From Candidatus Poribacteria bacterium (GTDB taxonomy: Bacteria; Abyssobacteria; SURF-5), in assembly GCA_016215705.1 (NCBI GenBank), contig JACRIR010000082.1, positions 1 through 46,715 of the forward strand: DNA of 46,715 nucleotides, read 5' to 3'. Positions 10,266-40,699 of the stretch are shown piece after piece (position 1 is the first letter of the stretch; each line of letters begins with the position of its first letter). The position numbers and the translations under genes are program-made. The notes under the pieces were generated by a model. The model saw nothing but the letters and a program-made list of their open reading frames with translations, had not been told where the DNA came from and did not search any database.

Positions 10266-10553
10266 ATGACATCGAAACTAAAGCCCGGCAGGAAATTCAT
10301 AGAAGGCGGGCCGGCGACCTGTACGGACGCGGAGATTCTGGCGATCCTGATTGGCTCCGGAGGCCCGGGGTATTCCGCGATTGATTGCGCGAATGCGATC
10401 CTGAAAAAGTTCGGGACCCTTGCAAATCTCATGGACAAACCGATCAAAGACCTCACACAAGTACAAGGCATAAACACAGTCAAGGCCATAAAGATTGCCG
10501 CTGCTTACGAACTCGTGTGTCGCATCATCGAGCATCTGGAGAAGAACGGATGA
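10266..10553 (+). CDS. RadC N-terminal (UPF0758, HhH) stand-alone protein 1
   Basis: This 95-residue protein matches only the N-terminal helical region of RadC. The LTDAEILAILIGSG-like segment (here T-D-A-E-I-L-A-I-L-I, residues about 20-31) is followed by a helix-hairpin-helix around residues 59-79 (LTQVQGINTVKAIKIAAAYEL). The C-terminal JAB/MPN metallopeptidase domain with its HxHPSGDP motif is absent. HhH motifs usually bind DNA without sequence preference. The stop overlaps the ATG of the methyltransferase gene by four bases (ATGA), so the two are translationally coupled. A homologue with the same coupling to a different methyltransferase is at 40181-40474. No upstream in-frame start exists before a stop codon. 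It is probably a DNA-binding partner of the methyltransferase, which is an inference. Confidence 0.82.
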   Translation: MTSKLKPGRKFIEGGPATCTDAEILAILIGSGGPGYSAIDCANAILKKFGTLANLMDKPIKDLTQVQGINTVKAIKIAAAYELVCRIIEHLEKNG

Positions 10554-12346
10554 ATCCTGAAGAACTGGGTGATGCCAAGATCAGTCGAGCATTCAGGCCG
10601 AAAAATCACCTCAACCGGCAAATACCTCCGGAACCGCACACCGCCATGTATGTCTGGCACAAATATTGGTCGCGCAAGACTTGGAATGTAGTGGGGGAAT
10701 TCATCAAACACTATACGAGAGAGCAGGATGTCATTCTCGATCCTTTCGCTGGTAGCGGCGTGGTGGCGATTGAAGCTGTTCGTCACGGGCGACGCGCTAT
10801 CGTCGTGGACTTGAATCCGGCAGCTAATCTGATAACTGAACTCACGTTGCGCCCGGTAAACCTTCTTAAGCTGCGTGAAGCCTACGTACAAGTTGAGAAG
10901 AAGGTCCGCAAGAAAATCGAGAAGCTCTACGAAAGTCATTGCGTGAAGTGCGACGCTCTGCTCATTCCCGCCTGCTTTGTTCGCGAGGGTGACGCGGTCA
11001 TTGAAGTGCGCTATCCAAAATGTCCTGACTGCGGATATCGGTGTGAGTCGGGAAGCAAACCCAAGAAGGCGGACATGGACGAACTGGAAACACTGGAGAG
11101 AAAGCCAATCACAGAATGGTATCCGAAGGACCCTCTCTCTTACCCCGACGGAGAGCCATTCATGAAGAGAGAACATTTCAAATCCCTTGATCAACTCTTC
11201 ACGCGCAGGAACCTGCGGGCGGTGGCAATTCTTCGTCAGGCAATCGAGGAGGAGAAGTCCCCTCTCACAAGAAAGTATCTCCTGGGCGCCTTCGCCTCAA
11301 TGGTCCATCTATGCACACGCATGATGCCGGTGGGTAACCCACAGCCCACAAATCACTATACGTACTTCAGTTCGCCGGGATGGACGCAGCATAGCTATTG
11401 GTCTGCGCCTCGTTTCATGGAGCAGAACGTTTGGGATCGCTTTGAGGGGGCTGTGCTGGGCCATCAGGGACTCCTAAATGCCAAAGCTGAATCCTCGAAG
11501 GTTCTGCCGAAAATCAAGCTCACGGAGAAATGGAGTGAGGTTCTCTCGGGGCGAGCAGATGTCGCCATAGTCACGGCGGACTGCCTCAAGGCAATGGGGG
11601 AGATGCCGGATGATTCCGTTGACTACATCTTCACTGATCCGCCTTATGACGCCTCCGTGCAGTACGGTGAGCTCTCATTTCTCTGGAACGCTTGGCTGAA
11701 GGAAAATGGTCATTACACGGAACGGCTTATCACGCATGAGATAGTCCGTAACGAGCGACAGAAGAAGCCCTTCGAGGTCTATCACTCGCTGCTGTCTAAC
11801 AGTTTCCAGCAAATGCATCGCGTCCTTCGCCCGGGAAGATACCTGACGCTCACGTTCCATAGTCCAACCTTCAAAGTAAGGAATGCCACTGTGCGGGCGG
11901 GAGTCTTTGCCGGATTCGACTTTCAGAAGATTCATCATCAACCACTTGGGCAGGTTTCGGCCAAGGCTATGCTTCAACCGTTCGGAAGCGCTCAAGGAGA
12001 TTTCTACCTTCGGTTCGAAAAAGCCACCAGCCGCAAGGCCAAACCAATGGAAGAAGTGACCGAAGAGCGGTTCAGACGCATCGTCATGGAGACATGCAAG
12101 AAAGTCATCGCGGAAAGAGCCGAACCCACCCCGTATACGATCCTTATCAATCAAGTTGATCCCGAACTCGCCAAGATGGGGTTGTTCGGAACGCTCAAAA
12201 CCGGCCTGGATGTGAAAACTGCGCTTCAAGATGAGGTCGGTCAAACATTCCGCCTGGTGAAAGCGAAGATCGGCGCCGCCGAAGGTGATCTGTGGTGGTT
12301 CAACGACCCAACCTCTTGCCCAAAGAGCGAAAAGACAACTTCCTAA
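10550..12346 (+). CDS. DNA methyltransferase with embedded zinc-ribbon-like insert
   Basis: This 598-residue protein carries both hallmarks of amino-group DNA methyltransferases: the SAM-binding D-P-F-A-G-S-G (residues 64-70) and the catalytic D-P-P-Y (363-366). About 290 residues lie between them, the alpha-like order in which the target recognition region sits in the middle. That middle part includes two CxxC pairs (C131-x-x-C134 and C158-x-x-C161) that look like a zinc ribbon. DPPY is found in both N6-adenine and N4-cytosine enzymes, so the methylated base is undecided. The ATG overlaps the stop of the RadC-like gene. No restriction endonuclease is recognised next to it, though a small ORF follows. 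It could be an orphan methylase, or part of a restriction or defence module. Confidence 0.85.
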   Translation: MNPEELGDAKISRAFRPKNHLNRQIPPEPHTAMYVWHKYWSRKTWNVVGEFIKHYTREQDVILDPFAGSGVVAIEAVRHGRRAIVVDLNPAANLITELTLRPVNLLKLREAYVQVEKKVRKKIEKLYESHCVKCDALLIPACFVREGDAVIEVRYPKCPDCGYRCESGSKPKKADMDELETLERKPITEWYPKDPLSYPDGEPFMKREHFKSLDQLFTRRNLRAVAILRQAIEEEKSPLTRKYLLGAFASMVHLCTRMMPVGNPQPTNHYTYFSSPGWTQHSYWSAPRFMEQNVWDRFEGAVLGHQGLLNAKAESSKVLPKIKLTEKWSEVLSGRADVAIVTADCLKAMGEMPDDSVDYIFTDPPYDASVQYGELSFLWNAWLKENGHYTERLITHEIVRNERQKKPFEVYHSLLSNSFQQMHRVLRPGRYLTLTFHSPTFKVRNATVRAGVFAGFDFQKIHHQPLGQVSAKAMLQPFGSAQGDFYLRFEKATSRKAKPMEEVTEERFRRIVMETCKKVIAERAEPTPYTILINQVDPELAKMGLFGTLKTGLDVKTALQDEVGQTFRLVKAKIGAAEGDLWWFNDPTSCPKSEKTTS

Positions 12347-12351
12347 CGAAG

Positions 12352-12561
12352 ATGCAATCTCCGTTGTTCAAAGAAAGATACGAAAAGGACTCCTGGAAGA
12401 TACTCTATTTCGACGAATTGATGAATAGATTCAGCAAGGCCAAAGGGAAGACTAGAATTGAAGACATTTTCGGGATGGATAGCCCGTCAAGAAAGAAGCA
12501 TGTCTCTTCCGGCAACTCGTATGCATTTGAGCAGGGAGTTCTGAACCTGGAGTATGACTAA
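12352..12561 (+). CDS. Small hypothetical protein behind the methyltransferase
   Basis: This 69-residue ORF starts five bases after the methyltransferase stop and has plausible protein composition (charged, with aromatic residues, e.g. KDSWKILYFDELMNRF). No known domain is recognised and its ribosome site is poor. The same frame stays open upstream, overlapping the end of the methyltransferase from 12292. It could therefore be a separate small subunit, or the displaced C-terminus of a methyltransferase that was longer before a frameshift around 12300-12346. A remnant of a restriction gene is a third possibility. Confidence 0.45.
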   Translation: MQSPLFKERYEKDSWKILYFDELMNRFSKAKGKTRIEDIFGMDSPSRKKHVSSGNSYAFEQGVLNLEYD

Positions 12562-24284: not shown

Positions 24285-27200
24285 TCATATTCTCTTTTTG
24301 TTCGCTTTCTTGTACAGGTTTCCGAAGAGCGGCTCCTTCTTGTATCGCTTCGACATGCCTATTACAAGGAGGATGTCGCGCCCCGTGATTTCTTCCATGA
24401 TAGCGCTGAGATATCCTGACGCGGAAGCGGGCAGCTTTTGAACGTTGTCGCAGTCATCGATAAGGATCACGTGCGACTTGGCGAGTCTGTTGAGCAAACC
24501 GCTCCAGTCGAAGGATGAGGTGAGAAGCAGCATCTCCGCGAGTTTCGACACCGGAAGCAGCGATACCCGGCCGGTAAACATTCCTTGCAGCCTGTTGGCC
24601 AGAGCGTTGAAGAAATGGTTGCGTCTCCCTGCGTCATCCTCGACAATCAGCAGCGGGAATTTGTTTCGCCATTTCTTGTTCGGATTGCGGAATGCCTCCT
24701 CGAATTCTGCGAAGACCTGGTTTCCACGGAAAGTGGCCGCGGTGAGAGCCGGGTCCGGCGCCAACAATTGATCGAGAAAATCCCTGCCGCGCGTGGGCGT
24801 AGGAGGTGGTTCGACAGGCTTGGCCTCTTTGGGCGTCTTGCTTTCCTCGGGCGCAGGGAGTGGATGGGGGACCGCTTCGGCGGCGACCTGCGGCTGTTCT
24901 ACAGGTATTTCCGGATGATTCTCGAGCTTGGCAAGCAGCCCGCCTTCGAGGAACCGAAGGAGGTATTCCTGGAGACCGCCCAGCCTTATGGGAGGCGCAG
25001 CGGCCGCGATTACGACTTGTGCATTCTGTTCTACGAGCGCCTGGAGGAACTCGCATACTTTGATTTGAATTTCCGACGCGGCGTTCATCGCTTCAAAATC
25101 GTCAATCATGAAGAGCCGGATCGAGTCAAGCCAGTGATCGAGCGTCTCCGGAGCAGTCCGTATCGTGTCCACAAGCGCAGGCACGGAAGTGATCTCGCAT
25201 GTCATGTCAGGGTGTTCCGAGGTGGACAATTGCCCTATCGCATGAAGAATATGCGTCTTCCCGCACCTCTTCGGGCCGTAGATGCACAGAGGATTGTAAA
25301 GCTCGCCCGGATTTCGCGCTATTTTCTCAGCCACGCTGACCGAGAAGGCAGTTCCCTCGAACGTCTTGAATTCCTCAAATGTATGTTGCCATTGAATCCG
25401 GCATGGGGGCGCAGAAGGCGACTCGGTGACAACGACCGGCTCTCGCTCTTCCGCCTGCTCAGGAGGTTTCGTCTCTTCTATTCGGGCAGCCTCCGGGACT
25501 GGCTGTTCCTCCGTCCGGGCAATTCTCTCGGCCATCAGTCTCTCGATTTCGGCTTCCATGCGCGAAAGTTCGGCTTTCAAGGATGCCGCCTGCTCGCGTT
25601 CCCTCGAGAGTTCGTCTTCAAACGCTTTGCGCGACCTTGCCAATTCGTTCACGGCATTCCTTACGTCTTCTTTCAACAAATCCACAACCTTCTTGTGCTC
25701 CGTCCTCGACTCCGAAGCCTCTTTGTCTTTCGATGCAAGGGCCGCAGCCAGCGCCTCACGAGCGCGGGCTTCCGCCGAACCCATGTCTTTGTCCTTGTCC
25801 GCAGCGTCTCGTTCGAGTTCTGCGACGCGCGCACGCAGCTCGTCCTGTGAGCGCGTGGCCTCGGAATCGAGTTCCGCGAGGCGGGTTTCGAGAAGTCTGG
25901 CTTTTTCCTGCAAGGACCCGGCCTCTTCCTCAGCCACTGCCTTTTCGGCGGCAGAAGAAGCGGATTGCGCCCTGGCATTGTCCGCTTCCGCCTTCATCCT
26001 GTCGTGAGCCGATTGGATCTCGGAATACTCCAATCGAAGCGCTGCCAGGGCCTTTTCCCTTGCCGAAAGTTCCGCTTCGAGGGAAGAGAACCGCTCCTTT
26101 ACTTCTGTGCCCTCCGCAGTTTTCCTCAAGAAATCCGCGCGCATCGAATCGAGCGTCTTACGGAGTTCGGACTGACGGCGCTCTTTTTCCTCAATTTGCC
26201 GCGCCGAGCGAGAAAGCTCTTCCTGCGCTTGTTTAATCGATTGTTCGTGCTGCTTACACTGCTGCGCTGCGTCCGCTGCCGCTTTCTCAAGCTCGGCTAT
26301 TCTCTCGCAGGCAGTGCGGAGTCTCGATTCCACCGCAGTGTTCGTGTCGCAGAATTCCTTTCCCTTTCTTGCCCATTCGGCGCGTTCGCGGTCCGCGGTC
26401 TCCGCGAAGGATGCGCGCTCGCTCTCGATCCGGGCTGCGAGTTCGGAAATGCGGGCCTCGGACTGTTCAAACGAGGCCTGCGCCTCGGAGAGACGGTTCT
26501 CGACTGCGGCAAGCTTGCGTTCGGCCTCCGAAGCGGCGCCTGCAGCCAGTTGCTCGGTCCGCTGCTTTTGCTCCGTCAACGCCGACATTCCTGCCTCGAG
26601 TGAAGAAAGCTTCTCAGACAGCTTCTCAATGTGTTCGGCGCTCGAATCGAGGTCTCGGCTCCTGGACTGTAATTCGCGGGAGAGTTTCTGACAATCTTCC
26701 TCACGTCGCTCGAGTTCTTCCCTCAATTTCGCGATGTGTTCCGACTCGCCTTTTTCCTTGGCCACCAGCAGTTGCTCGGTTTGCCTTGCCTTGTCCTCGA
26801 GCCGCGATATCTCCGTCTTGAATGCTTGTATCTCGAGCGTCGCTTCCCGAAGCTTCCCGTCCAGAAAAGCCTTGGCGTCGGAAAGCGCTTTTTCCTGTTC
26901 GGCTCGCAAGGCTTTCTCGCGATCAAGAGCCTGAGAGGAATCCTTCTGAGCTTTTTGGAACTCCGCGGCGGCAGTGGAAGCCCGAGCCTCGGTCTCCTGT
27001 AGTTTCTCTTGAAGCTCTGCGACCTTCTTCTCCGCTGCTCCCAGTTTTCTGGTTGAGCTTTCGATTTCAGCGGAAAGTTTGGCTGTTGTCCTTTCTTTCG
27101 AGTCCTTGAGGGCCGAGAGTTCTTTGGCGCCCCGCTCGATTTCAGCGGCGAGTTTCTTTGCGTCTTTGTCCTTTGACTGAAGCTCGGATTCCCGGTTCGC

Positions 27201-29777
27201 GAGTTCCAACCCGAGCTTCTGCATCTCGACGCCATGCCGCTTGAGTTCTTCTTTGTGGCTACTGATGCGTTCCGCCGCCTCTCGCTCACGGGCGGAAAGC
27301 AATTGTTCGCGGTCTGCCAACGCGTTTTGGAGCTCTTCCAAACTCGCTCCGAGTTGCGCTATTGTTCCATCCTTCTCCGAAAGCGCCGCCTCCCTCTCAG
27401 CAGCGGATTTTGAGAGGTGAGAGACCCTCTCCGCGAGCGAGTTCGCTCTGCGCTCCAGCGCATCCCGCTCGGAACGGGCTTCGTTCATGCGCTGGGCAAG
27501 CGCGGCGTTCTGAGAACCAAGCTTTTCGATTTCGACCTTCGATGAATTCAGACCTGCTTCGAGCGAGGCCGCGCGACCCGAAAGCTCTTTCACATGCTGT
27601 TCGCTTGCGTCGGCCCGGGACCTCTCGGATTCAATGGATTTCCGGAGGTCGCCAATCTCGTTCCCAAGCTTTGCTTCGCGTTCGGAAAACGCCGCAAGCG
27701 CGCTATCCTTCTCCGAGATGACGCGACGCAGTTCCGCTCGTTCGGCGCCGCTTGACTCCCTGACCTCCTCAAGCGAGCCTGAGAGCGAGGCGAGGTCGTC
27801 TTCCAATCTTCGCCTTCTCTGGATTTCGTGTTCGAATCTGGCCGCCAATTCGGAAGCCCGCTTTTCGCTTTGCTCCCGCTCTTTGCTTACAATCTGTATG
27901 TTCTTCTGCAGCTCGGCGGACTGGGTCTCCGCCTCCGCCTTGATTCGGTGTATTAGATTCTCCCTGGCTTCGAGCTCCTGGACAAGTTTCCCGTGCTCCC
28001 TATCGATTGAGTCACGTTGTTCGATCACCTTTGCGAGTTCGGTCGATTGCGATTTCAGTTGGCCGTCCAGCTTGCCGGCGCGATCATTCAGATCATCGAG
28101 TGACTTGCTCAGTCGCTGCTTCTCGCCGTCGGTCTCTTCGAGTTGCTTGCGGAGCCGCGCCGCTTCCTTTGCCTGGCCCGAAAGGCTGGTTTCACGCTGT
28201 TTCGATTCAGCGTCCAGTTTCTGCCTCAGGGTTTCCAGTTCTTTCTCAAGTTTCTCGCGTTCCTTGCCGGCGGAATCACGTTGAGAAACAACATTTGCGA
28301 TTTCGGACGCCTTCGATTTCAGTTGGTCGTCGAGTTCACCGAGGCGTTCAGTCAAGTCTCCGATCGACTCGTTCAGGAGCAGGTTCTCGGTGTGCGCCTC
28401 TTCGAGTTGTTCGCGCAATTGAGCCGCTTCCTTGGTTTGCTCCGTAAGGCGGGCTTCGCGCTCCTCACGCAAGAGCCCCAGCTTCTGTCCCTTGTCTTCA
28501 AGTTGTATTCTCAAAGCGAGAAGCGTATCTTCGCTATCCTTCTTCAGTCGGTCGAGTTGCGCTTGCAGTTTCTTTTCCGACTCCTCGGAGTTTCTCCTTC
28601 CTTCCAGGCTTGCTGTCAACTGCTCCGATGCTTCGGCGAACTTCCGTTCCAATTCCTGCAGCCGGAAATCCTTTTCAGCGAGCGCTTTCTCGTGATCTGC
28701 CCTGAGCTTGTCCGCGAGTTTGTCACGTTCCTCGATATCTTTCTTGAGACGAGCCACTTTATCGGGAACCGTCTTCTCGAGGGATTTCAGGGCGGCTTCC
28801 TTCTTGCCGATTTCCGAGTCCCGTTTCTGAATTCGTGTGGCCAGGCCGGTGGCCGCGGTTTTTGCCGCCTGTTCGTTGAGCTTCGTGGCCTCGAGCTCAG
28901 CCTTCAGATCCTCCGCGCTGCGAACCCGTTCGGCGAGACTACTTTCGAGTTGCAGGATTCTCGCGTTGAGGTCGCGCTCGCGCACCCCTGCCTTTGACTG
29001 CACCCATGAGCTGTATATCTGCTCCGTCGTGGCGGAGCTCTTGTTTTCGCCCGCTTCTTCGCGGACAATGGAGAGAAACTCTTCGACTCTCTCTTTGTTC
29101 AACTGCTGGCGCGTGAGTGTGGAAAACGTCTTCAAGTGGGACGGCAGCTTCTTCAGATAGAGGATATCGCCACCGGCTTCCATCATCAATAGCTTGAGGA
29201 TTTCGACGTCCAGCCGCATACCTGCGCGCTCACACTCGCGCTTAAGAATCTTGAACAGTGTCTCCGGTCGAGGCCCGGAAACGAGCGCATCTATTCCGCC
29301 GCGCAGCCGGCTCAGGAAGCGTTCGTTGAAGCCGTCGAGGCTTTCGATCGGCAAGGCGGAAGCGAACACGATCTGTTTTTCGTTGTCAATGAAAGTGTCG
29401 AAAAGCGCGTAGAACCTGCTGCAGATTTTCGGGTCTTTTCTGAATCGTTCAATATCGTCGGCGATCAGGATATCCATGCGGCTGTATGTCTTGTATATGA
29501 ACTCCTGCGAGCCGCCATTCGAGCCGTCCGGCTGGTTGCCGGAGAGGAGTTTCTCGACGGGAAATTCGTCGGAGATGCAGAGGAGGGAAACTTCGGGATG
29601 CGCCGCCGCCAGTTCATTCTTGATGGCCGAGAGAAGATGTGTTTTGCCTGAGCCTCTTTGGCCATGAATGAAGAGAGGCGAATAGCCTTTTTCCCGATTG
29701 ACCACGGCCTTGCACAAGGCGACGGCAAATCTGTTGGAGTCGTCGACCTCGTACGAGTCCATCTTCAGATCAGGCAC
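24285..29777 (-). CDS. Giant coiled-coil protein with three DnaA-like AAA+ domains
   Basis: This 1,830-residue protein begins with a DnaA/Hda-like AAA+ domain (residues about 1-240). It has Walker A G-Q-R-G-S-G-K-T (39-46), Walker B I-L-I-A-D-D (103-108) and a sensor-like N-E-R-F-L-S-R-L segment (151-158). Residues about 262-1415 are continuous heptad-type coiled coil rich in Glu, Lys, Arg, Ala, Ser and Leu. A linker leads to a second DnaA-like domain (about 1459-1620) with G-P-K-R-C-G-K-T (1501-1508) and L-F-M-I-D-D. After a proline-rich linker, a third domain (about 1668-1830) keeps the Walker B V-I-L-I-D-D but has lost Walker A. No DnaA domain IV helix-turn-helix is seen. The GTG start overlaps the tldD stop by eight bases, and an in-frame ATG at 29762 is an alternative. 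The plan resembles SMC/Rad50, with AAA+ instead of ABC heads. The function is unknown; chromosome organisation or a cytoskeletal scaffold is a guess. Confidence 0.9.
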   Translation of the reverse strand: MPDLKMDSYEVDDSNRFAVALCKAVVNREKGYSPLFIHGQRGSGKTHLLSAIKNELAAAHPEVSLLCISDEFPVEKLLSGNQPDGSNGGSQEFIYKTYSRMDILIADDIERFRKDPKICSRFYALFDTFIDNEKQIVFASALPIESLDGFNERFLSRLRGGIDALVSGPRPETLFKILKRECERAGMRLDVEILKLLMMEAGGDILYLKKLPSHLKTFSTLTRQQLNKERVEEFLSIVREEAGENKSSATTEQIYSSWVQSKAGVRERDLNARILQLESSLAERVRSAEDLKAELEATKLNEQAAKTAATGLATRIQKRDSEIGKKEAALKSLEKTVPDKVARLKKDIEERDKLADKLRADHEKALAEKDFRLQELERKFAEASEQLTASLEGRRNSEESEKKLQAQLDRLKKDSEDTLLALRIQLEDKGQKLGLLREEREARLTEQTKEAAQLREQLEEAHTENLLLNESIGDLTERLGELDDQLKSKASEIANVVSQRDSAGKEREKLEKELETLRQKLDAESKQRETSLSGQAKEAARLRKQLEETDGEKQRLSKSLDDLNDRAGKLDGQLKSQSTELAKVIEQRDSIDREHGKLVQELEARENLIHRIKAEAETQSAELQKNIQIVSKEREQSEKRASELAARFEHEIQRRRRLEDDLASLSGSLEEVRESSGAERAELRRVISEKDSALAAFSEREAKLGNEIGDLRKSIESERSRADASEQHVKELSGRAASLEAGLNSSKVEIEKLGSQNAALAQRMNEARSERDALERRANSLAERVSHLSKSAAEREAALSEKDGTIAQLGASLEELQNALADREQLLSAREREAAERISSHKEELKRHGVEMQKLGLELANRESELQSKDKDAKKLAAEIERGAKELSALKDSKERTTAKLSAEIESSTRKLGAAEKKVAELQEKLQETEARASTAAAEFQKAQKDSSQALDREKALRAEQEKALSDAKAFLDGKLREATLEIQAFKTEISRLEDKARQTEQLLVAKEKGESEHIAKLREELERREEDCQKLSRELQSRSRDLDSSAEHIEKLSEKLSSLEAGMSALTEQKQRTEQLAAGAASEAERKLAAVENRLSEAQASFEQSEARISELAARIESERASFAETADRERAEWARKGKEFCDTNTAVESRLRTACERIAELEKAAADAAQQCKQHEQSIKQAQEELSRSARQIEEKERRQSELRKTLDSMRADFLRKTAEGTEVKERFSSLEAELSAREKALAALRLEYSEIQSAHDRMKAEADNARAQSASSAAEKAVAEEEAGSLQEKARLLETRLAELDSEATRSQDELRARVAELERDAADKDKDMGSAEARAREALAAALASKDKEASESRTEHKKVVDLLKEDVRNAVNELARSRKAFEDELSREREQAASLKAELSRMEAEIERLMAERIARTEEQPVPEAARIEETKPPEQAEEREPVVVTESPSAPPCRIQWQHTFEEFKTFEGTAFSVSVAEKIARNPGELYNPLCIYGPKRCGKTHILHAIGQLSTSEHPDMTCEITSVPALVDTIRTAPETLDHWLDSIRLFMIDDFEAMNAASEIQIKVCEFLQALVEQNAQVVIAAAAPPIRLGGLQEYLLRFLEGGLLAKLENHPEIPVEQPQVAAEAVPHPLPAPEESKTPKEAKPVEPPPTPTRGRDFLDQLLAPDPALTAATFRGNQVFAEFEEAFRNPNKKWRNKFPLLIVEDDAGRRNHFFNALANRLQGMFTGRVSLLPVSKLAEMLLLTSSFDWSGLLNRLAKSHVILIDDCDNVQKLPASASGYLSAIMEEITGRDILLVIGMSKRYKKEPLFGNLYKKANKKRI

Positions 29778-36708: not shown

Positions 36709-36947
36709 AGGGGGAGCGCGGAAGGGCAAGACGAAAGGCAAGAAAGGAAAGGAAAGCTTTTCAACCGCAAAAGCGTGAAGATCGCAAAGAAAAGAAGAGA
36801 TAGGAACACGAACCAAAGAAGGAAAAGTTTGGATCACGAATGTCACGAATCGCGCAAGGCGCGAGACGAATTACACGAATGAACTGGGATGTCATTCTGA
36901 GCAGCCAACCGGCGGGGCGGGGCTAAACTCCAAAACTGATTATCGCC

Positions 36948-39900
36948 TTACTCGATAATCTTCTTCACAACCTCATCGATGTCTTTCAGTTCCTCTTTCA
37001 GCATTTCGCGCACGAGCCCGCGAAGTTTGCCGATGCTCTGGATTTCGCCTGCGCCGCCTGATGCCAACCAGCGGTCGACCTTCATGCTGCAATCCACCCC
37101 TAGTTCCACCAGTCGGAGATGCTCATCGTCGTTTGCATTGAACTTGGGGATCGGCAACTCGAGAACTTTCTTGCAGATATCTCGTGGCCCCCATAGCCCG
37201 CGACTCTGCATTGGCTTGACCAGATTGTCGATAGTCCGCGCATTCAAGAGAGACGCCAGGTAGTAAGCTTCTCCCTCGTCGTCAGTTTCCATATAAAACA
37301 GCTTGTAGTCCACGATAAATCCGGCTGCCTTAATCCTTTGGTCGCCAATCTTGAACGCAAGGCGGCCACGCTTCTTCACTGTCGCACACATATTTGTTGC
37401 CGACATAGGGTATAGCACTAGATACTTCTTCTGCGGGTTCTGACGTGTCAAACCATGCACCCGATCGAGTCTCTCGTAAATGTTCATCCCTTCCGCTTTT
37501 GATTTTCGTCGTTTGATCCACTCTGCTTCTGCGCTATCCAGCCATTGCTTCAGATGCATAAATCCACAACTGTGCGCCTCGTGAGCATCGATAATGCGGA
37601 AATGGTCACTCTCTGCCTTAAGGGGGAGTATGACCATTCGATGAGCCAGATGTCCAAACGGAAGAAGATCGGTTGAGAGGATCGTTCCATATAAGAAGTC
37701 GCGTTCGACATTCCCGTCGAGTTTTGCATCTTGATATGATGCTTTAGCCTTCTCCGTGGCTCTCGGGTCTGTTTCCAATGGTGGAAGGTCAGGGTCGAAG
37801 CCGAGAGGCGACGATTTCACATGAACAAACCAGAACGACCGCGGCACGATCGTTGCGCCTTCCGTGAACCATTTCCAATAGAAGCTTTGGGGGTTTGAGG
37901 TCACAGCTTTCCCCGTTCCCCAGAAGGAGCGCTTGCCACGTTGATGAAGCGATATTTCGACGTTGTCCACCTGAAGAGATATCTCAGCTTCTTCGAGAGA
38001 TGCGTTTTTTCGGTATAGCTTCCCGTTGAGGATTTGTCCCATGATCGGATACTTTGTCTCCGCGACGGCGCTCTTCTCTGCGATCAAAACGCATGATGGC
38101 ACGTTGAACAAGGGCACAATGTTCTCACAGTCCCACACTTCTCTCCATAGAAGCGACTGGCCGGCGCTCACATTCAACTTGAAGGAGCCTTTTCGAAGCC
38201 CATCATGTTGGTCAGCGCTAAACAGACTCCTCGGCAATACAAATGCAATTGTGCCACCTGCTTTCAGGTACAGGTCTGCGGCGCGGACGAGGAAAAGCGT
38301 CCCTAGTTCGAGATGAGTAATAAGCTCACCACGTCCCGCGAGGAGCTCATATGTCTCCGTGATCTGTTGCCTTAGGAACGATTGGTAGCTTGGCTCAGCA
38401 TATCGGAACGAAACCCATGGCGGATTGCCTACAACAAAGTCAAACCTCGACCTGAAGAAGAGGGGCTTGTATATATTCTTGAGAACAAATGCCCAAATCG
38501 AGTCGCGGTCGGCATCGATAAAGTGTTTGAGCGCGACCGCGATTCCGAACAGCGCACGAATAAAAGCCTCATCTTCGGTTCGGGGAAATCGTTGCGCCTT
38601 GAGCAAACTTGTGAAGCCTTCAAGCGAGATGGGTTTCCCTTTATTCTGGAGAGCGTAATCCCTGGAAAGATCGATTGCGCGATCACAAAGGGCCAAGTCC
38701 TTTAGCAATTCTTCAGGAAGATAGACTTGTCGGCCGTTTAGTCTGACTTCATAGTCGACGGTCTTATCCCCAGCCCAAGGCTCGGGCAAATTCATCGTGT
38801 CAGCAAGATAAATGGGTATGGTTATCTTGCCTTTGCGCTTCTTTAGTAAATCACCCAAGGCCAGAATATAGTTTGTCTTTGCGATTACGACAGCAAGTGG
38901 GTGAATATCTACTCCGCACACAGATTCTAAGAGGTGTCCAAGTGTCTCCGCAGAATCTTTGAGCCGCTCGCGCTTTTCACGAATCGCCAGATAAAGGAAT
39001 GTACCGGAACCACATGCGGGGTCGAGCAAACTGCCGCGCGGGTTTTCATCCAGCAATTTGCGGACAAGGCGGTGCGCCAGCCAGTCAGGTGTGTAGAACT
39101 CACCCAAGTCGTGCCGCGTCTTAGGGTCGACCAATTCCTGATACAACGATTTCAACACATCTTCGGACAGTTCCCGCAGATTGTAGTTCTGGAGTAAGCT
39201 GAACAACCAGCGAACTGCGCCAACGCTGGCTGTTACTGCTTCCGACCTGGCGAGCCAGGAGAAAAAATCTTCTTCAATGAAGTTCTCGATTCCCTGATTC
39301 TTGAATAGTCGGCCTTCAATCATTTCGATGATTTGGCTAGCGCCGGGCAGGCCGGTAGTCTTGCCAATCCGAAGCCAAGACATGAGCTTTGCTAACGTCG
39401 CCAAGTAGGTATGACGGACAAAAAGCTCGTCGCCTGCAACCTCGCTTCCATATACGATGCGCAAGTACTTTTCCCAACCGTCATAGACAACAACAAAGGC
39501 GCTTTGCGTCTTGATTTCCCGCCACAGCGTAAGCAGCGAGTTCATGGTTGTTCGAAATGCGTGGCTTCTTACGCCGAAATCCCGCACAATCATCTCGCTT
39601 GTCGGACATAGAATTGTCTTTCGGAAAAAATAGCGATCGAGCCAGTAGAAAACTTCCTCTGGTTTGAGTTGCGTCCAGTCGGGAGATTCAAGCACCTCGA
39701 GAATAACGTCATCGGGCGCGACATCTTTTGCTTTTCCATCGGAGAGCTTCGGCGAGTAGGTCACGAAGCGGACGCCGTCGGTGGCGATGCAAAGGTATGG
39801 GGTGCGGGCGTCGGGGGATTCCTGCGACCAGAGGATTGCGGTATAGCGGCGGAGTTGGCCCTCGGCTTCAGTGCGTTTTTTCGGGATGTTGCTCTCAAAC

Positions 39901-40184
39901 TCGATGATCACATTGCCGAAGAGGTTGTCGGCTTTTCCCTTGAGAATGCGATCCTTCTGTCTTACGGTCAGAAACTGCTCGATACCCTTTACGTAACCAT
40001 CAATGAAGTTGGGATTAACGTCAAAGAGTTGTTGGAGCAATGCGGCAAAACGATGCGAGCGGGCTTGTTCATTGTTCAACGGCTCGACTTCTCTCAGGTA
40101 TTGCGGAATAATTTCGCCAAGTTGCTTTTGGCGCGTGTCAGAAATTCGCGTGGGTTTCTCGCCAAGCTTCTTCGGCTTTTTCAT
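36948..40184 (-). CDS. Type IIG-like restriction/adenine methyltransferase (Eco57I-type)
   Basis: This 1,078-residue single-chain protein has an N-terminal region with a possible PD-(D/E)xK-type nuclease core (D86 and I-I-E-F-E around 93-97). A helical connector leads to the methyltransferase core, with L-G-E-F-Y-T-P (360-366), the SAM site D-P-A-C-G-S-G (388-394) and the N6-adenine motif N-P-P-W (587-590). A long C-terminal part is likely to hold target recognition, and several segments there resemble Eco57I-type specificity regions. This gamma order is typical of enzymes that cut and methylate with one polypeptide. The ATG overlaps the TGA of the RadC-like gene by four bases. Whether the nuclease is active is unproven. 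Confidence 0.87.
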   Translation of the reverse strand: MKKPKKLGEKPTRISDTRQKQLGEIIPQYLREVEPLNNEQARSHRFAALLQQLFDVNPNFIDGYVKGIEQFLTVRQKDRILKGKADNLFGNVIIEFESNIPKKRTEAEGQLRRYTAILWSQESPDARTPYLCIATDGVRFVTYSPKLSDGKAKDVAPDDVILEVLESPDWTQLKPEEVFYWLDRYFFRKTILCPTSEMIVRDFGVRSHAFRTTMNSLLTLWREIKTQSAFVVVYDGWEKYLRIVYGSEVAGDELFVRHTYLATLAKLMSWLRIGKTTGLPGASQIIEMIEGRLFKNQGIENFIEEDFFSWLARSEAVTASVGAVRWLFSLLQNYNLRELSEDVLKSLYQELVDPKTRHDLGEFYTPDWLAHRLVRKLLDENPRGSLLDPACGSGTFLYLAIREKRERLKDSAETLGHLLESVCGVDIHPLAVVIAKTNYILALGDLLKKRKGKITIPIYLADTMNLPEPWAGDKTVDYEVRLNGRQVYLPEELLKDLALCDRAIDLSRDYALQNKGKPISLEGFTSLLKAQRFPRTEDEAFIRALFGIAVALKHFIDADRDSIWAFVLKNIYKPLFFRSRFDFVVGNPPWVSFRYAEPSYQSFLRQQITETYELLAGRGELITHLELGTLFLVRAADLYLKAGGTIAFVLPRSLFSADQHDGLRKGSFKLNVSAGQSLLWREVWDCENIVPLFNVPSCVLIAEKSAVAETKYPIMGQILNGKLYRKNASLEEAEISLQVDNVEISLHQRGKRSFWGTGKAVTSNPQSFYWKWFTEGATIVPRSFWFVHVKSSPLGFDPDLPPLETDPRATEKAKASYQDAKLDGNVERDFLYGTILSTDLLPFGHLAHRMVILPLKAESDHFRIIDAHEAHSCGFMHLKQWLDSAEAEWIKRRKSKAEGMNIYERLDRVHGLTRQNPQKKYLVLYPMSATNMCATVKKRGRLAFKIGDQRIKAAGFIVDYKLFYMETDDEGEAYYLASLLNARTIDNLVKPMQSRGLWGPRDICKKVLELPIPKFNANDDEHLRLVELGVDCSMKVDRWLASGGAGEIQSIGKLRGLVREMLKEELKDIDEVVKKIIE

Positions 40185-40474
40185 TGCGCCGATTTTCCTT
40201 TTTCTCGTGTCAGGCGAACCGCCAGTTCGTAAGCTGCGGCGAGCCGGATGATTTTAGCGTCGGCAAGTCCTTTGATTTCGTAAAGTCTCTCGAGAGGCTG
40301 ATCGCAGAGGCCTTCAAGCGAGCCGAACTTCTGAAGAACATCTTCAGCTATTTTCAAAGCGGGTCTGCCTTTGCTGCCTGGCGCAATCAGGATCGAAAGG
40401 ATTTCGGCATCCGTGAGGGCGCTTGCGCCCGCTTCTCTCAGTTTTCCGCCCGGGTGCTCCCATTTGGCCGTCAT
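40181..40474 (-). CDS. RadC N-terminal (UPF0758, HhH) stand-alone protein 2
   Basis: This 97-residue protein is homologous to the one at 10266-10553. It shares L-T-D-A-E-I-L-S-I-L-I (residues about 20-30), the K-F-G-S-L-E-G-L segment and a helix-hairpin-helix (Y-E-I-K-G-L-A-D-A-K-I-I-R-L-A-A-A-Y-E-L). The JAB domain of true RadC is missing. Its TGA overlaps the ATG of the type IIG-like gene by four bases, the same arrangement as in the first pair. Two copies tied to two unrelated methyltransferase types suggest a dedicated helper of DNA modification, for example in DNA binding or target access. That role is an inference. Confidence 0.83.
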   Translation of the reverse strand: MTAKWEHPGGKLREAGASALTDAEILSILIAPGSKGRPALKIAEDVLQKFGSLEGLCDQPLERLYEIKGLADAKIIRLAAAYELAVRLTREKGKSAQ

Positions 40475-40560: not shown

Positions 40561-40699
40561 GGCGAGGCGACTCAGTCGCCATAGCCGAAACAAAAAATAA
40601 AGAAACTCTTGGAACACGAATCACGCAAAACGCGAGACGAATACACACTCCCCGAGAAAGCAGGAATCCATCGTGGGGACAATGAGTTATCCAAATATA

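Follow-up and report, generated by a model that had tools for sequence, protein, structure and literature searches.

Stand-alone RadC N-terminal domain proteins encoded beside restriction-modification enzymes of several types

We investigated a 46,715-nucleotide stretch of DNA from a Candidatus Poribacteria bacterium (GenBank contig JACRIR010000082.1, hereafter the window), in which a 97-residue protein homologous to the N-terminal domain of RadC (RadC-N) is encoded directly upstream of a large restriction-modification (R-M) enzyme. The small protein falls within a distinct clade of stand-alone RadC-N domains, and all 22 intact copies of the family that we identified lie beside or near an R-M enzyme, which suggests that the RadC-N protein is an accessory component, overlooked until now, that bacterial anti-virus systems of several unrelated restriction types have in common. 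The reading we favour, with about even confidence, is that these loci are R-M operons with a dedicated small subunit, predicted to be co-translated and to bind DNA, that would be part of the restriction polypeptide.

A distinct clade of stand-alone RadC-N domains

The genes in question, the second of two such modules in the window (module 2), and the repeats that bracket them are as follows.

40181..40474, minus strand: P0001, 97-residue stand-alone UPF0758_N (RadC N-terminal, helix-hairpin-helix) protein (PF20582; AlphaFold2; clade membership)
36948..40184, minus strand: P0002, 1,078-residue type IIG-like R-M enzyme (PF02384, PF07669, PADLOC; alignment with 4 relatives)
40181..40184, minus strand: ATGA stop/start overlap of P0001 and P0002, 4 nucleotides
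36844..36871, plus strand: 28-bp direct repeat, left of module 2
40615..40642, plus strand: 28-bp direct repeat, right of module 2

The sole Pfam match of P0001 above its cut-off was PF20582, UPF0758_N (59.8 bits, cut-off 27.1). P0002 contains the methyltransferase motifs DPACGSG (residues 388-394) and NPPW (587-590) and the Pfam domains PF02384 and PF07669, with REase_MTase_IIG as its best PADLOC profile (284 bits). An earlier note on this DNA had described a 97-residue RadC-N-only protein preceding a 1,078-residue Eco57I-type enzyme with an ATGA overlap; the coordinates, the PF20582 match and both motifs confirm this description. The N6 adenine methyltransferase motifs lie in a single P0002 chain and are all invariant across five aligned sequences (P0002 and its four relatives), as are D86, E95, Q110 and Y114 of a PD-(D/E)XK-like nuclease motif (D86-E95xE97 with Q110xxxY114 in P0002). 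The position of the catalytic lysine is occupied by E97 in P0002, by E in two of the four relatives and by K in the other two. P0002 may accordingly be a functional R-M enzyme, and we infer from the ATGA overlap that its translation would be coupled to that of P0001. An AlphaFold2 model of P0002, built from a two-sequence input, reached a mean confidence score (pLDDT) of only 35.6.

The two direct repeats are identical at 25 of 28 positions, and may be traces of the transfer of module 2 in one piece, or may belong to a family of intergenic repeats. Elsewhere, the genome carrying the window encodes one separate full-length RadC frame of 245 residues.

We searched for relatives with a first profile, built from both small proteins of the window and two domains of the locus L009, and run on 198 genomes from the phylum of a Deltaproteobacteria/SeepSRB2 locus; stand-alone copies (best 13 domains) scored 100-150 bits, versus about 90 bits or less for full-length RadC. 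Later searches used a 14-sequence profile (A3), and identified relatives in 15 of 395 genomes from the same phylum, the richest of those searched, in 1 of 194 genomes from the phylum of a Verrucomicrobiota locus, in 2 of 296 from that of a Sphingobacteriales locus, and in 1 of 40 from that of a Calditrichaeota locus. None were found with this profile in 398 genomes from the phylum of a Methylovulum locus, or in 8 from that of a Nitrospirae locus. One of the three genomes of the window's own phylum, its own, contains the family, and a two-sequence profile matched only full-length-sized frames in the other two. In total, the family was found in 20 of 1,334 searched genomes and in one viral contig (L146), amounting to 23 copies: 22 intact, and a truncated 68-residue relic (L142) that was omitted from the tree and from the intact count.

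Among genome contigs, a scan with a two-sequence alignment recovered 80 loci, 79 of them full-length RadC and L009 alone of the stand-alone type. Viral contigs yielded one clade member (L146) and six full-length-sized RadC frames when searched with a RadC-N alignment, and no match to P0006, an enzyme of the module-1 type described below. Plasmid and phage collections yielded RadC-like matches only; two plasmid matches annotated as UPF0758 were set aside, there being no R-M gene after either. Four further candidates with short frames or intermediate scores (L140, L141, L143 and L144) have domains that place on the RadC side of the tree.

The weaker members of the family score 94-103 bits, barely above the best RadC (about 92 bits), and family membership therefore rests also on phylogeny. 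In a tree of 93 rows, one branch (support 100/99) separates 25 stand-alone domains from 68 N-terminal domains of full-length RadC, and this split was recovered in 100% of 200 bootstrap trees. The signature HPGGK[LF] is present in 19 of the 25 stand-alone domains and in none of the 68 RadC domains. At the level of sequence, the stand-alone RadC-N domains thus form a distinct clade. The outcome named beforehand as refuting, in which the small proteins would be independent fragments of RadC, was not seen once full-length RadC was included, all of the stand-alone domains lying on one side of the 100/99 branch.

We additionally estimated the ratio of non-synonymous to synonymous change (dN/dS) in eight close pairs. 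It was 0.058, 0.005, 0.085 and 0.134 in four of them, with synonymous change effectively saturated in the 0.005 pair, and saturated in the other four pairs; the small gene is under purifying selection where this is measurable. Three loci encode tandem proteins with two RadC-N domains (L009:4949-5512, L137:6179-6739 and L157:6766-7404).

Neighbouring restriction-modification genes

An R-M gene is the next gene after 20 of the 22 intact copies. In 17 cases its frame starts from 38 nucleotides inside to 3 nucleotides past the stop of the small gene (including L131 and L135, each interrupted by a contig end or a break in the frame, and typed from their N-termini alone), and in three further loci it follows at 38 (L139), 135 (L157) and 175 nucleotides (L134). 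A 62-residue frame and a ParE-type toxin frame separate the small gene from the R-M gene in L132, and an R-M piece lies 1.9 kb downstream, close to the contig end, in L156. The neighbour of the L142 relic matches HsdR. Kept by relatives in 20 genomes from several phyla, this arrangement is beyond chance.

Partners were typed with Pfam and PADLOC on representatives, and with phmmer for the remaining members. Six architectures were found: two type IIG families, DrmMI-like enzymes, a methyltransferase with a putative nuclease, a type I system, and a type II nuclease encoded on its own.

Module-2 enzyme type: window, L146, L135, L156
Second type IIG family (PADLOC PDLC03606, N-terminal PD...ExK motif): L130, L131, L132, L133, L136, L138
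DrmMI/type IIG-like chains of 1,351-1,363 residues: L134, L153
Module-1 type: window, L009, L129, L137, L154, L155, L158, L159
Type I operon HsdR-HsdS-TIR-HsdM: L139
Stand-alone type II endonuclease (98 bits), with a separate methyltransferase fused to a helix-turn-helix domain on the opposite strand: L157

From the two enzymes of the window, the earlier note had argued that the small partner, and not the enzyme type, defines the module. The tree supports this argument, with a single family heading six enzyme architectures as opposed to the two in the window. Two of these loci have further genes of note: a CAP12-like TIR gene lies between HsdS and HsdM in the RadC-N-headed type I operon (L139:6404-12657), and a TIR-STAND ATPase gene lies closely upstream of the RadC-N R-M operon in L129 (1060-3690).

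Mapped on the tree of the small protein, partner type requires 6 changes for 6 types, compared to a mean of 12.3 when shuffled. This clustering is strong, and therefore partner swaps appear to be rare, with the small protein and its partner mostly inherited together; the type I partner, which nests inside the DrmMI-linked branch (99/94), is a probable swap. Distances between small proteins and between their enzymes are correlated across eight pairs (Mantel r 0.84, p 0.001). In an independent converse test, we looked for the module-1-type enzyme across the 395 genomes searched in one phylum; four contained it, each with a RadC-N gene directly upstream.

In loci that encode the nuclease and the methyltransferase separately, the nuclease gene is the one led by the small gene (HsdR in L139, the endonuclease in L157), and the common denominator is probably the nuclease-bearing gene, not methyltransferases as such. 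The same pattern, a nuclease-bearing gene following in 20 loci and HsdR or a separate endonuclease where the functions are split, is what would be expected of a safety catch, in which the small protein binds and restrains the nuclease until the host DNA has been methylated, its leading and coupled gene ensuring that it is made first. The fixed stoichiometry given by the stop/start overlap would suit such a role. However, the sequence profile and fold of the domain resemble those of a DNA binder, and type IIG enzymes, which have a methyltransferase of their own and would be least in need of restraint, are the commonest partners; we consider a safety catch unlikely.

For comparison, among 79 loci with full-length RadC in other taxa, none has an R-M homologue within about 7 kb, compared to 22 of the 23 stand-alone copies (L142 included; Fisher 1.9e-21), although the enzyme queries used for both counts were drawn from the positive loci and favour positives. 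The Pfam and PADLOC assignments are support independent of these queries. Within the richest phylum, we identified an R-M gene at most 300 nucleotides downstream of 5 of 37 full-length RadC genes (40 minus L174, L176 and L177, which lack a tblastn hit), two of them with a 4-nucleotide overlap, and an R-M-like frame within 1.5 kb at 5 of 21 full-length RadC loci, one locus being common to the two sets.

Full-length RadC immediately or shortly before HsdM, HsdR or type IIG-like genes, richest phylum: L167, L179, L181, L187, L190; L117, L124, L125, L126, L128

That full-length RadC heads R-M operons at 5 of 37 loci would favour a passenger, a decayed copy of RadC riding along with R-M genes, RadC-type genes often being mobile beside anti-restriction genes; RadC genes have been described as RadC/ArdB modules of mobile elements (PMC12458937). 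This reading is already weakened by the single clade with its own signature, by purifying selection where measurable, by the coupled frames and by co-inheritance with the enzyme, and we regard it as very improbable.

The other module of the window (module 1) lies on the opposite strand.

10266..10553, plus strand: 95-residue stand-alone UPF0758_N protein (PF20582, 61.1 bits, cut-off 27.1)
10550..12346, plus strand: 598-residue N6_N4-type DNA methyltransferase (PF01555; alignment with 7 relatives of 757-877 residues)
12313..12510, plus strand: out-of-frame remnant of the relatives' C-terminus (P0006 residues 768-834; tblastn E-value 1.8e-10)

Here too the small gene and the methyltransferase gene are joined by an ATGA overlap. 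The earlier note had proposed that two methyltransferases of different class and size share the same small partner. The small proteins are indeed a homologous pair (43% identity; tblastn against the window, E-value 2e-21), albeit of 95 residues in module 1 and not 97, and the two enzymes do differ, although the module-1 enzyme appears to be the deletion product of a longer one. It lacks the C-terminal domain of its relatives, with about 150 codons, including the putative nuclease core, missing. The C-terminal 230 residues of these relatives contain a conserved D...FEVES pattern (D728, E742 and E744 of P0006), and this D...ExE motif suggests a nuclease; the domain had no Pfam match and no match in the Protein Data Bank (PDB). 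Module 1 thus looks like a methyltransferase stripped of its putative nuclease, or an assembly error. Two proteins of the module-1 type, P0004 and P0006, match PADLOC PglXI (138-146 bits), and no PglZ- or Brx-type domain, expected of BREX neighbour genes, was found among the open reading frames of the window that were scanned.

Between the two modules, the window also encodes a 1,830-residue protein (24285-29777, minus strand) with matches to the DnaA ATPase domain in two stretches at its N-terminus, a second ATPase match near residue 1500, and coiled-coil-type matches in between.

Predicted fold and candidate mechanism

The AlphaFold2 model of P0001 is confident and all-helical (pLDDT 91.2). 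Structural alignment with VIA-align matched it to the helix-hairpin-helix (HhH) domain of DisA (Z 8.1 over 62-63 residues) and to XPF and Hef (Z 7.5), with the HhH domains of ERCC1, UvrC and DNA ligase also among the top ranks, and an independent profile search matched the HhH of topoisomerase V (4e-8) and Hef (0.007). Sequence and predicted fold together identify the small protein as an HhH domain, of the type that grips the DNA backbone in DisA, XPF/Hef, UvrC and topoisomerase V.

We propose that the small protein would be made alongside the big enzyme and would bind to it, because the genes are predicted to be translationally coupled and are co-inherited. It might add a sequence-non-specific grip on DNA, or recognise structural features of DNA, for instance ends, nicks or forks, and either activity would allow the nuclease half to engage invading DNA or to remain bound to it. 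The enzyme's own target-recognition parts would still determine specificity, and the tandem proteins of three loci would amount to ready-made dimers of the DNA grip.

Several observations weigh against this proposal. By the standards of VIA-align, a Z of about 8 is a middling score for a helical fold, and Foldseek matches against the PDB were weak (best E-value 0.09). The AR2 domain of NusA, a protein-binding HhH domain, also scores in the profile search, and the domain of the small protein could bind protein instead of DNA. Some members, the window copy (GLA) among them, lack the second glycine of the hairpin, and the net charge is mildly positive (mean +3.3 over 25 domains). The small gene is retained in module 1 despite the loss of the putative nuclease core. 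In addition, 15 plasmid records contain relatives of P0002 (at least 80% coverage, about 24-33% identity) with no small-protein match, three of these loci having been inspected, and therefore the partner is not required by the enzyme fold in general. The R-M link is broader than the RadC-N-only family, with no sharp line to full-length RadC. It is conceivable, if doubtful, that the RadC N-terminal domain serves restriction enzymes as a general adaptor, a DNA grip or structure sensor interchangeable across type I, II and IIG systems. Full-length RadC would then be part of this biology as well, given that R-M operons are headed by full-length copies too, in two cases with a 4-nucleotide overlap.

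The small protein might alternatively be a transcription regulator of the R-M operon, similar in function to the controller (C) proteins of R-M systems, which are encoded by a small leading gene overlapping the restriction gene; its size, leading position and overlap are typical of these proteins. Its fold is however HhH and not helix-turn-helix, as judged by Pfam and the predicted structure. In a simple scan of limited power, covering 23 upstream regions, no 8-mer was common to at least 5 of them, and just 2 had a palindrome that no more than 1 in 40 shuffles equalled. The methyltransferase of L157, moreover, is already fused to a controller-like helix-turn-helix domain. We judge a controller role improbable, and retain the DNA-binding restriction subunit as our preferred reading.

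Relation to known systems

The role of RadC is disputed, with nucleic-acid processing suggested (PMC5512222), and RadC has been treated as a mobile-element protein with a JAB domain and as a component of RadC/ArdB modules (PMC5512222, PMC12458937). The literature searched, whose coverage leaves out most subscription journals, yielded no account of a RadC-N protein as a subunit of R-M systems. If our reading is correct, one dedicated small subunit, undescribed in that literature, is common to R-M systems of several types. Enzymes that may appear inactive if produced on their own would then have a partner open to direct testing, and the debate over what RadC does would gain a lead.

Compared with RadC/UPF0758 proteins (PF20582 and JAB), the small proteins are homologous to the N-terminal domain, and a minority of full-length genes likewise precede R-M genes. 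However, neither small protein (97 and 95 residues) has a JAB match, RadC family models score them at 47-70 bits against cut-offs of 134-180, they fall in the separate clade and not among full-length RadC, and they carry WxHPGGKL at the place of the PREKL motif of RadC. P0002 shares with Eco57I-like type IIG enzymes a fused, putative PD-(D/E)XK-like motif, an N6 adenine methyltransferase and a C-terminal part in one chain, and differs in being preceded by a dedicated RadC-N gene and in having E for the catalytic lysine. P0004 and P0006 resemble PglX-XI/DUF1156-type methyltransferases by their PADLOC match, with the relatives of module 1 carrying the extra C-terminal domain of 230 residues. Unlike controller proteins, the small RadC-N protein has a different fold and no conserved palindromic box in the 23 upstream regions. 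Finally, it is similar in predicted fold and sequence profile to the HhH domains of DisA, XPF/Hef, UvrC and topoisomerase V, which lie within larger enzymes, whereas the small RadC-N protein is free-standing.

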